64,000 nucleotides of DNA. Source: Flavobacteriaceae bacterium. GTDB lineage: Bacteria > Bacteroidota > Bacteroidia > Flavobacteriales > Flavobacteriaceae. The notes beneath the pieces were generated by a model. It was given only the letters and a program-made list of their open reading frames with translations. It had not been told where the DNA came from and did not search any database. The position numbers and the translations under genes were made by a program. Below, one piece after another: positions 28,998-33,349 of this stretch. Every line of letters begins with the position of its first letter. Positions within the stretch are counted from its first letter, which is position 1. The DNA is taken from NCBI GenBank assembly GCA_023558315.1, contig JAMJVX010000003.1, positions 1 through 64,000 on the forward strand, read 5' to 3'.

Positions 28998-29579
28998 ATG
29001 AAAATTTATTCTAAAATATTATTTATTGTTTTATTGAGTGTTAGTTTTTCAACGCTTATTAGCTGTGACCAATTAAAAAAGAAGAAGAAAAAGACTGAAA
29101 AAGCTAAGGTAGTTCAAACAGAAGTACAAAATAAAGTTGAATTTATGCTATCCCCTGCTAGCAATAGCAATGTTAGCGGACATGTTCTCTTTACAGAAGA
29201 AAATGGGGAAGTCTCTCTAGTGGCACACGTAGAAGGATTGAGCAAAGGGATGCATGCTATTCATATTCATGAATCTGCTGATTGTACTGACCCTTCTGGA
29301 AAATCAGCAGGAGGGCATTGGAATCCTCTATTTCAACCTCATGGAAAGTGGGGAAGCCCTGAAGGGTATCATAGAGGGGATATTGGTAATTTTGAAGTAG
29401 GAGAAGATGGAAAAGCGACAATTACCTTTAATACCAATGAATGGTGTATAGATTGCGAAGACGATACGAAAAATATTGTAGGAAAAGCATTAATAATCCA
29501 CCAAGGAGAAGATGATTTAACCTCTCAACCTTCTGGTGCTGCTGGCGCAAGAATTGCATGTAGCGGTATTATTTCATGA
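28998..29579 (+). CDS. sodC: lipoprotein Cu/Zn superoxide dismutase
   Basis: SodC dismutates superoxide in the cell envelope. The 193-aa protein has a lipobox (STLISC, C23), a short lysine-rich linker, then the Cu/Zn-SOD barrel with copper/zinc ligands in GMHAIHIHESADC, SAGGHWNPLFQPHG, YHRGDIGNF and ALIIHQGEDD. The disulfide cysteines are in ADC and ARIACSG, the GLSKGMHAIHIHE segment is typical, and an extra Cys pair sits in EWCIDCED. The stop TGA immediately adjoins the stop of the convergent DCC gene inside an 18-bp palindrome. Confidence 0.93.
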   Translation: MKIYSKILFIVLLSVSFSTLISCDQLKKKKKKTEKAKVVQTEVQNKVEFMLSPASNSNVSGHVLFTEENGEVSLVAHVEGLSKGMHAIHIHESADCTDPSGKSAGGHWNPLFQPHGKWGSPEGYHRGDIGNFEVGEDGKATITFNTNEWCIDCEDDTKNIVGKALIIHQGEDDLTSQPSGAAGARIACSGIIS

Positions 29580-29585
29580 AATAAT
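29568..29585. repeat. 18-bp perfect palindrome holding two convergent stop codons
   Basis: ATTATTTCATGAAATAAT is identical to its reverse complement and contains both stop codons, TGA on each strand. It makes SodC and the DCC protein share the same last three residues, Ile-Ile-Ser. It may be a weak bidirectional terminator, since T-rich sequence follows on the plus strand. Confidence 0.6.
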
Positions 29586-29966
29586 TTTTTTTCTTATTTC
29601 AGCTGATGGTATAGGGCAAGAAGTACTTTTAAGTATTTTTTGCCTTTTTTTTGCTATAATATCGTAAATAATATTTCCAATAAATGTTGGGATTAAATAA
29701 AGCAAGTATCCAAAAATTTTAAAATACGGTAATTCTAAAAGGATTTTTCTAATCGCTTTTATTCTTAAATAATGTTTGCCTTTGTCTATTAAAATAAGCG
29801 TTTTTGCTGTGTATGCTTCTAATTGATATTTTGTCAATAATTTATTCCCTGTTTTAGACAGATTAGATATAAAGAGAAATCTATTTTTGGTGTCTTTTTT
29901 AGCAATAAAATAAACTGATTTATTGCAAAAAGCACAATCCCCATCAAAAATTATTTGCGTTTTCAG
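29574..29966 (-). CDS. DCC-family thiol-disulfide oxidoreductase-like protein, non-canonical start
   Basis: Reading back from the stop, the frame encodes the whole DCC domain (PF04134): IIFDGDCAFCNKSVYFI, then the ISNLSKTGNKLL and KAIRKILLELP segments, with a hydrophobic helix near the C-terminus. The family is named for the D-C-C residues in DGDCAFC. The last TTG in frame (29837) would delete that motif, and no ATG, GTG or TTG exists between the motif and the acyltransferase stop. The best start is CTG at 29964-29966, giving 130 aa, the family length. The frame is the same as the upstream acyltransferase and only the TAA at 29982-29984 separates them. CTG initiation, reinitiation or readthrough are all possible. 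Confidence 0.75.
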   Translation of the reverse strand: MKTQIIFDGDCAFCNKSVYFIAKKDTKNRFLFISNLSKTGNKLLTKYQLEAYTAKTLILIDKGKHYLRIKAIRKILLELPYFKIFGYLLYLIPTFIGNIIYDIIAKKRQKILKSTSCPIPSAEIRKKIIS

Positions 29967-29981
29967 AGTAGAGTTACAATA

Positions 29982-30695
29982 TTAATTAGGATTTATTTCT
30001 ATCGCCTCTTTAATAAGTTTATTAATTTCTTCAATAGAAAGGTCAGTATCAATATTTAATGGAGGTTTAAATGTAATACTCATTGTTGCATTCTTATCTA
30101 ATGTTTTTAATCTGGTGCGATGAAAAAAATCAGAAAATCCTTTAATTACAATAGGAATAACTATAGGCTGCACTTTTTTAATTAAAAATGAGGTTCCGTT
30201 ACGTACTTCCGCCTTAGGATTGGTAGTTCCTTGTGGGAAGTTTATAACCCATCCCGTATTAATTGCAGTAATGATATTAGAAAAATCACTCATTTTAGGT
30301 GTATTATCCTTTTCTATCCAAGGCCTTCCAATAGATACTGAACCCGTATATTCTAGTACACGAGATAAAAATTTAGACTTCATTGTGACTTTTGATGCCA
30401 CATAATAAAGGTTGTATTTACTTCTAAAAAGGTAAGATGGATTTTTAATTGAATTTACTCTATTCTTTAGACTAGCATTAATAACATGAATCATTGCTGA
30501 TACATCTGCAAAATACGTTTGATGGTTTGAAATAAAAAGAACTTTTGTGTCTGGCAACGTCTTTATTATCTCAGTACCTTTAATAATTAATCTTCGTTTG
30601 CTATACCAACTATGAGTATATAACCCAACTACAATAATTATAATCTTTTTTATAAATAAATTATATCCTAGAAAATCTCTCTTAAAAAATATCAA
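29982..30695 (-). CDS. PlsC-like lysophospholipid acyltransferase
   Basis: The protein of about 237 aa has the acyltransferase HX4D motif in FISNHQTYFADV, the SIGRPW and FPQGTT blocks, and PIVIPIVIKGF, all typical of 1-acyl-glycerol-phosphate acyltransferases and lipid-A-type acyltransferases in this superfamily. A hydrophobic N-terminal helix (FIKKIIIIVVGLY) anchors it in the inner membrane. No ATG precedes the catalytic motif. The TTG at 30719 lies in a -7 box, so I choose the TTG at 30695, 21 bases downstream of that box. The DCC gene continues in the same frame after its TAA. Confidence 0.82.
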   Translation of the reverse strand: MIFFKRDFLGYNLFIKKIIIIVVGLYTHSWYSKRRLIIKGTEIIKTLPDTKVLFISNHQTYFADVSAMIHVINASLKNRVNSIKNPSYLFRSKYNLYYVASKVTMKSKFLSRVLEYTGSVSIGRPWIEKDNTPKMSDFSNIITAINTGWVINFPQGTTNPKAEVRNGTSFLIKKVQPIVIPIVIKGFSDFFHRTRLKTLDKNATMSITFKPPLNIDTDLSIEEINKLIKEAIEINPN

Positions 30696-30716
30696 TTTAA
30701 TAAATTTATTAGTCGG

Positions 30717-30724
30717 CAAATATA
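30717..30724 (-). promoter_or_regulatory. -7 box TATATTTG for the acyltransferase/DCC pair
   Basis: The minus strand matches TAnnTTTG 21 bases upstream of TTG 30695. Confidence 0.45.
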
Positions 30725-30783
30725 ATTATTTTTTATAGATATAATTTTTCTTTTATTAAAATAACATTCTTTGAATATTTGAA

Positions 30784-30791
30784 TATATTTG
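30784..30791 (+). promoter_or_regulatory. -7 box TATATTTG for the M14 peptidase
   Basis: The box matches TAnnTTTG 38 bases before ATG 30830. Confidence 0.4.
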
Positions 30792-30829
30792 CACGACATA
30801 TAACTAATATTTTATTTAAACAAATCATT

Positions 30830-33349
30830 ATGAAACATCTTACATTATTACTCTTATTGTTAATTTCTACAATTTCACTTTCACAATCAAATTTATCATA
30901 CTATTTGCCTGATGATGTCACCTATGACAGCACAATCCCAACGCCTGAAAGCATTATAGGACATGAAGTCGGTGAATGGCATATTAGTCACGATAAATTA
31001 TCCCAATATATGGAAATTTTAGCGAGTAAATCGGATAGAATTTCTATAGAAAATAGAGGTGTTACATATGAAGGAAGACCCCTTTTATTGCTTACAATTA
31101 CAAGTACTGAAAACCATAGTAATATTGAAGAAATTAGAAAAAACCATGTTTCGTTATCCAGTTCAGAAGGAGCAAGTAAAAGTGTAGAAAATATGCCTAT
31201 TGTTGTCTATCAAGGGTTTTCTATCCATGGAAATGAACCAAGCGGGAGTAATGCTTCCTTATTATTAGCCTATTATCTCGCGGCAGCACAAGGACCAAAT
31301 ATTGATACTTTGTTAAATAATGCTGTAATTTTATTAGACCCTAGTCTTAACCCTGATGGGTTACAAAGATTTTCTCATTGGGCAAATGTCAATAAAAGCG
31401 TCTACCTAAATTCAGATAAAAATGAGAGAGAGTTTCATGAAACATGGCCTGGAGGGAGAACTAATCATTACTGGTTTGATATGAATAGAGATTGGCTTCC
31501 TGTTCAATTACCTGAGTCTCAAGCACGTATAGCTAGTTTTGTAAAATGGTTGCCTAATATTCTAACAGACCACCACGAAATGGGCACAAATGCTACTTTC
31601 TTTTTTCAACCTGGTATCCCCTCTCGTACGCATCCTCTTACTCCTAAAATGAATCAGAAACTTACAGGAGAAATTGCCAATTTTCACGCAGAAGCGTTTG
31701 ACAAAATTGGTTCTTTATACTACACTCAAGAAAGTTTTGATGATTTTTACTATGGAAAAGGCTCTACCTATCCAGATATTAATGGAAGTATTGGTATTTT
31801 ATTTGAACAAGCAAGTTCTAGAGGGCATTTACAAGAAAGCGCCAATGGTGATTTATCTTTTCCCTTTACAATAAGAAACCAATTTACAGCAAGTCTTTCT
31901 ACTTTAGAAGCTGCAAAAAACTTACGAGTTAAAATTCTGAATTATTATAAAAAATTCTATGCTGATGCTAGAAAAGAAGCCTTAAAAGACCCTTATAAAG
32001 GAATTGTTTTTGGAGATTCAAAAGATAAATCCATTAATCATGAATTTATAAAATTATTAAAAACTCATGATATCAAAGTACATAAATTAAGTAGTTCAGT
32101 AAAAAGAAACGGAATCACGTTTAGTAAAAACAATGGATATATTATTCCTCTTGAGCAAAAAAAATATAGACTAATAAAAGCGATGTTTGATATAAGAACA
32201 AAATTTAAAGATAGTTTATTTTACGATGTGTCTGCGTGGACATTACCTTACGCATTCAATATACCATTTCACTTTGCACAGACCACAAATTTCATTGGTG
32301 AGGAAATAACTGAAAACAAAGTATTTTCAAAAGATTTAGAGAAATCTGAATATGCCTATTTATTTGAAGCGCATAACTACAATACGCCAAAGTTAGTGCA
32401 TACGCTTTTAGACAAAGGGATTAGAGTAAAAGTTGGATTAAAGCAATTCACCCTAAAAGGAAAAAAGTTTGATTATGGAACCTATTTAATTCCAAGTAAA
32501 AATCAAAAAATAGATAGTGACTCTTTATACAAATTATTATCAAAACTGAATAGCAAAACAAGTATTTCCATAAGTAGTGTAAGTACTGGATTAACTGAAA
32601 AAGGCATTGATTTAGGGTCCAATAACTTTTTAACTTTAAGACAACCTAAAGTTGCTATGTTAGTAGGTAATGGGATAAGAAGTTATGATGCTGGTGAAAT
32701 ATGGCATCTGATGGATACACGGTATCAAATCCCAGTCACTAAAATAGATATTTCTTATTTATCATCTATTGACTTAAGCAAATACTCACATTTTATAATC
32801 CCAAGTGCAGGCGCTTCTTCATTAAATCCCTACAAAGAAAAACTTAAGAATTGGACTAAATCAGGAGGTGTATTGGTTGGATATAGAAATACTATTAATT
32901 GGTTATCAAAAAATGAATTTATTAAATCTACAACTATCAAAGAAAAAGAAAAAAGAGAAGCGAAAAATATTAGTTTTGAAGACAAACAAAATTACAATGG
33001 AGCGCAATATATTGGAGGCGCTATTTTTCAAACAAAAATAGACAGAAGTCATCCGCTTAACTTTGGTATTACAAGTAATAAATTACCCATTTTTAGAAAT
33101 AGTACTATATTCTTAGAACCAAAGAAAAATAGTTATGATAATCCTATTCAATATACAAATACGCCTCTTTTGAGTGGTTATATTTCAAAGGAAAATTTGA
33201 AGATGTTAAAAAATACCGTTCCTATCACAATTAACAATTTAGGGAAAGGAAAAGTTATCTGCCTAACTGACAACACAAATTTCAGAGCTTTTTGGTTTGG
33301 CACTAATAAACTTTTTGCTAACATATTATTCTACGCTTCAATGATGTAA
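30830..33349 (+). CDS. secreted M14-family zinc carboxypeptidase
   Basis: The 839-aa exported protein has a signal peptide (MKHLTLLLLLLISTISLSQ). The N-terminal M14 domain (about 40-370) has zinc ligands in FSIHGNEPSGSN (HxxE) and the later histidine in ILTDHHEMG, a substrate-binding DMNRDW, and a catalytic-type glutamate in GILFEQASSRG. The second half (about 385-839) has no clear enzyme motif. It includes a GATase/ThuA-like stretch (PKVAMLVGNGIRSYDAGEIWHLMD, SHFIIPSAGASS). This layout is common in flavobacterial M14 proteins. It is one base from the following lipoprotein gene, so both are likely cotranscribed. Confidence 0.88.
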   Translation: MKHLTLLLLLLISTISLSQSNLSYYLPDDVTYDSTIPTPESIIGHEVGEWHISHDKLSQYMEILASKSDRISIENRGVTYEGRPLLLLTITSTENHSNIEEIRKNHVSLSSSEGASKSVENMPIVVYQGFSIHGNEPSGSNASLLLAYYLAAAQGPNIDTLLNNAVILLDPSLNPDGLQRFSHWANVNKSVYLNSDKNEREFHETWPGGRTNHYWFDMNRDWLPVQLPESQARIASFVKWLPNILTDHHEMGTNATFFFQPGIPSRTHPLTPKMNQKLTGEIANFHAEAFDKIGSLYYTQESFDDFYYGKGSTYPDINGSIGILFEQASSRGHLQESANGDLSFPFTIRNQFTASLSTLEAAKNLRVKILNYYKKFYADARKEALKDPYKGIVFGDSKDKSINHEFIKLLKTHDIKVHKLSSSVKRNGITFSKNNGYIIPLEQKKYRLIKAMFDIRTKFKDSLFYDVSAWTLPYAFNIPFHFAQTTNFIGEEITENKVFSKDLEKSEYAYLFEAHNYNTPKLVHTLLDKGIRVKVGLKQFTLKGKKFDYGTYLIPSKNQKIDSDSLYKLLSKLNSKTSISISSVSTGLTEKGIDLGSNNFLTLRQPKVAMLVGNGIRSYDAGEIWHLMDTRYQIPVTKIDISYLSSIDLSKYSHFIIPSAGASSLNPYKEKLKNWTKSGGVLVGYRNTINWLSKNEFIKSTTIKEKEKREAKNISFEDKQNYNGAQYIGGAIFQTKIDRSHPLNFGITSNKLPIFRNSTIFLEPKKNSYDNPIQYTNTPLLSGYISKENLKMLKNTVPITINNLGKGKVICLTDNTNFRAFWFGTNKLFANILFYASMM

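Follow-up and report, generated by a model that had tools for sequence, protein, structure and literature searches.

A DCC1-like oxidoreductase gene without a canonical start abuts a shortened acyltransferase gene in an uncultured flavobacterium: a probable lineage-specific insertion

Introduction

How does a bacterial gene come to lie in the reading frame of its upstream neighbour, behind a single stop codon, and how could it be translated from there? The question is raised by a gene for a PlsC-like acyltransferase and a gene for a DCC1-like thiol-disulfide oxidoreductase (DCC) in a stretch of 64,000 nt, called the window below. The window comes from the single genome of an uncultured flavobacterium (G000), a draft metagenome assembly in 83 contigs. 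A first-pass annotation of the locus had offered three explanations: CTG initiation by termination-reinitiation, readthrough of the stop, or a recently split fusion gene. Its interpretation was borne out in part; it had missed that the acyltransferase lost a conserved C-terminal tail where the DCC gene is inserted.

Results

Layout of the locus

The acyltransferase frame extends from stop to stop over 29982-30725 (-) and the DCC frame over 29574-29981 (-). They are one and the same frame, separated solely by a TAA (Table 1). As first annotated, a complete DCC domain follows this stop, which was confirmed by the frames and by a match to PF04134 (77.8 bits, above the curated cut-off of 27.8). 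The codons 3' of the TAA are, in frame, TAT TGT AAC TCT ACT CTG AAA ACG CAA ATA ATT TTT GAT GGG GAT TGT GCT TTT TGC, and the frame is closed by a TGA at 29574-29576 (-). The stops of the DCC gene and of sodC overlap by 6 nt inside a palindrome that has a single exact copy in the window.

Table 1. Features of the acyltransferase-DCC junction and its surroundings (window positions).
Feature	Position	Strand	Evidence
Cu-Zn superoxide dismutase gene (sodC), convergent on DCC	28998..29579	+	PF00080, 131 bits
18-bp perfect palindrome ATTATTTCATGAAATAAT across both convergent stops	29568..29585	.	Exact-copy search of window
DCC1-like thiol-disulfide oxidoreductase, 130 aa counted from CTG, between sodC and acyltransferase	29574..29966	-	PF04134; neighbourhood of relatives; tree
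CAFC, CxxC motif of DCC	29925..29936	-	Sequence
CTG, likeliest start of DCC (putative)	29964..29966	-	15 nt past stop; A at -3; position of homologues' ATG
TAA stop of acyltransferase, only in-frame stop ahead of DCC	29982..29984	-	Sequence
PlsC-like acyltransferase, TTG start at 30695-30693, C-terminal tail of ~22 residues absent	29982..30695	-	PF01553; orthologue alignment at both ends; HX4D
M14 peptidase gene, upstream, divergent	30779-33349	+	–

The DCC motif DGDCAFC satisfies DGxCxxC, with both cysteines of the CxxC in place; no match was obtained in NCBIfam. Under a simple model based on the local base composition, an open frame of 130 codons would arise by chance with a probability of ~8e-6. 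The intactness of the gene argues that it is expressed now or was until recently.

The acyltransferase has lost its conserved end

The acyltransferase matched PF01553 above the curated threshold (26.8 bits, cut-off 23) and carries its HX4D motif as NHQTYFAD. Its non-ATG start had been pointed out correctly: it is a TTG, a normal bacterial start, and is aligned with the ATG of the orthologues. In a rough count of starts against genome G263, 15 TTG were found beside 147 ATG and 5 GTG, so a TTG start is ordinary in the window genome.

The other end of the gene differs from its relatives. A conserved C-terminal tail, AIEQHPSFLKV...REW, was present in all 47 orthologues examined, the family-wide ending being ...AIEQHPSFLKVI.Q.ELEALEELNKKREW. 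The window protein lacks the HPSFLKV...REW tail of the orthologue group and terminates after AIEINPN, about 22 residues short. A frame error concealing the tail was considered and rejected, as HPSFLKV is not encoded by the other frames past the stop.

Neighbourhoods of relatives

The sodC neighbourhood of the window is also found in two genera, g5 and g159. In 11 of their loci, sodC converges directly on the acyltransferase gene, the acyltransferase tail is intact and DCC is absent between the two genes. No DCC was detected in the flanks (up to 1.5 kb) of any of the 47 acyltransferase loci, and no fused acyltransferase-DCC protein was found among the relatives. Where other genomes carried both genes on one contig, the nearest pairs among the matches listed were 9-35 kb apart.

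The window genome carries a single DCC. In the tree it groups with L031, L141 and L002, apart from the DCCs of g5 and g159, which differ from it and lie elsewhere in those genomes. With its few columns and long branches, this tree does not name a donor, and the window DCC could conceivably be an old native copy that was relocated. In one g5 genome (G438, contig C2, 157063-157385; L293, L296), a DCC match lies in two frames with stops and is probably decayed.

In the window, DCC fills the gap from the acyltransferase end up to the sodC stop. Since the relatives have no DCC here, the tail is lost and the DCC is of another subfamily, it is very likely that the 3' end of the acyltransferase gene underwent an insertion or replacement specific to this lineage. 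No mobile-element signature was found at the insertion, nor any convincing target-site duplication flanking it. The SodC C-terminus is GIIS in the window (29540-29600), GIISENAVLRSKE in g5 and GIITE in g159; from these differing ends, both neighbours of the insertion may have been trimmed at its edge.

The start codon of DCC

Codon listing confirmed that no ATG, GTG or TTG stands in frame between the TAA and FDGDCAFC. The near-cognate codons in this stretch had been given as CTG, ATA and ATT; all three are present, and ACG has to be added. Among 128 loci of DCC homologues, a few of which were included twice, 127 have a canonical start 3-25 codons ahead of FDG, so that its lack in the window is unusual. 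It was specifically an ATG at 100 of the 128. Out-of-frame ATG, GTG or TTG codons that could feed DCC were rejected, as the other junction frames hold stops and no usable start.

The CTG at 29966 lies -6 codons from FDG. The near homologues (L031, L141, L034, L035, L002) start -6 or -7 codons from FDG, with ATG in the close ones. A CTG stands at the homologous position, with no canonical alternative. It follows the TAA after a gap of five codons and has an A at -3, which promotes initiation in Flavobacterium johnsoniae; the A residues at -6, -12 and -13, also favourable in that species, are absent (PMC6847099). CUG accounts for 0.024% of bacterial start codons, and its initiation efficiency in E. 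coli is ~0.86% of that of AUG (PMC11497404). Initiation here would therefore be weak, given also the lack of the favourable A residues. A CTG start is nevertheless the best reading, because it lies 15 nt from the stop with an A at -3 and no other codon is placed as well.

Other genes lacking canonical starts

Few other genes of the window genome lack a canonical start near the expected position. When 835 genes were scanned ab initio, the hits were prfB (with its programmed frameshift), infC, dnaX, a long ORF resembling TamB, and a handful of fragmentary or false calls. The scan gave no sign that CTG starts are habitual across the genome, but it is insensitive (the DCC gene itself scores below calling). 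Reciprocal comparison of ORFs (247 pairs) with 400 kb of G263 turned up infC and prfB again; most other cases were antisense shadows or had starts lying just past the limit. The murF gene was rejected as a case, since it has a TTG.

The infC gene lacks a canonical start in G000 (contig C7, 35502 (+); L177, L187, L188), and its expected start, ATA GCA AT(A/T) CGA, is common to G000 and G263. The TamB-like ORF of 1465 aa (contig C1, 17296 (+); L169) adjoins a divergent gene; ATG, GTG and TTG are all missing from its first 239 codons, although its coding signal begins early. In G000, a run of 11 A divides dnaX between two frames (contig C8, 25393-26476 and 24782-25406 (-); L178, L189), and both parts of its G263 homologue are in a single frame. 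The break is due to an indel in the assembly or to slippage along the A run. Slippage of this kind is known for dnaX of some bacteria.

Discussion

Judged from the sequence, the main cause of this arrangement is an ordinary kind of gene rearrangement, and the rare start is a putative one. In the simplest history, a DCC of a subfamily other than that of the sister genera would have entered between sodC and the acyltransferase 3' end. By comparison with the relatives, it would have displaced the last ~22 acyltransferase codons and a short intergenic spacer. The DCC gene would thereby have been left with neither its own upstream region nor a canonical start. With such a history, the shared frame is a one-in-three coincidence. 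Acyltransferase and DCC would be produced as separate proteins: ribosomes would end at the TAA, and some would reinitiate 15 nt downstream at the CTG, giving low levels of a 130-aa protein that begins fMet-KTQIIFDGDCAFC. Weak CTG initiation aided by termination-reinitiation would be the likeliest route to DCC. Of the three options first offered, it is the best fit. Once the insertion is granted, use of the CTG is somewhat favoured; insertion and CTG use taken together are put forward tentatively.

The C at 29966 could be a one-base consensus error or a minority allele, the true start being ATG, in which case the insertion and the loss of the tail would stand. The CTG is one base off ATG exactly at the expected start position, and in this 83-contig draft the break of the essential dnaX at its A11 run may be a further assembly error. 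However, the site is not homopolymeric and no further evidence of substitution errors was found, so this reading is unlikely, if worth keeping in mind. It is rather improbable that DCC is a young, still undecayed pseudogene whose start was lost at the time of insertion or shortly afterwards. The canonical start is absent, the initiation context is poor and the split match in G438 indicates that DCC loss occurs nearby; against this, the 130 codons are open and the CxxC is intact.

A DCC start at the ATA (29954) or ATT (29951) is very improbable: both are near-cognate, and ATA is probably the infC start in both the window genome and G263, but they would leave two or one residues ahead of FDG, a stretch that is no shorter than five or six residues in the near homologues. 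The two fusion explanations found no support among the relatives and are given just as little weight. The single frame, with five codons from stop to CTG, would suit readthrough of the TAA, with a membrane-bound fusion of acyltransferase and DCC as its product, or a fusion gene that was split recently, but a shared frame has a one-in-three chance. Neither fused nor adjacent homologues were seen at the 47 acyltransferase loci, where the protein closes with a conserved tail of its own and not with DCC; sodC is directly adjacent in the 11 loci of the nearest genera. Readthrough arising after the insertion, which would yield some membrane-anchored fusion with DCC replacing the lost tail beside the short acyltransferase, is the faintest prospect of all. 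The junction looks like a gene-junction scar rather than a hidden fusion protein.

The locus is a clean example of how an insertion in a compact AT-rich genome may shorten one gene and make the inserted one rely on a near-cognate start just past the upstream stop. If the CTG is used, it offers a natural test case for reinitiation at non-AUG codons in a phylum that does without Shine-Dalgarno signals; if it is not, the case is one of ordinary genome remodelling. Compared with known 3'-end truncations by insertion that create tight gene pairs, the conserved tail is lost in the same way and the newcomer abuts the shortened gene; nothing essential differs, and a mobile-element signature is absent here. 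Other rare bacterial starts, AUU/AUA in infC and CUG, are likewise near-cognate codons at the expected start, without AUG, GUG or UUG. Such starts of infC are known for autoregulation. Their conservation extends across species (here from G000 to G263), whereas the DCC CTG is known from one genome, the single one of its genus in the comparison. Among DCC1-like oxidoreductases (PF04134), the window protein is the same in domain, CxxC motif and length, and differs in its position after an acyltransferase gene and in its start codon.
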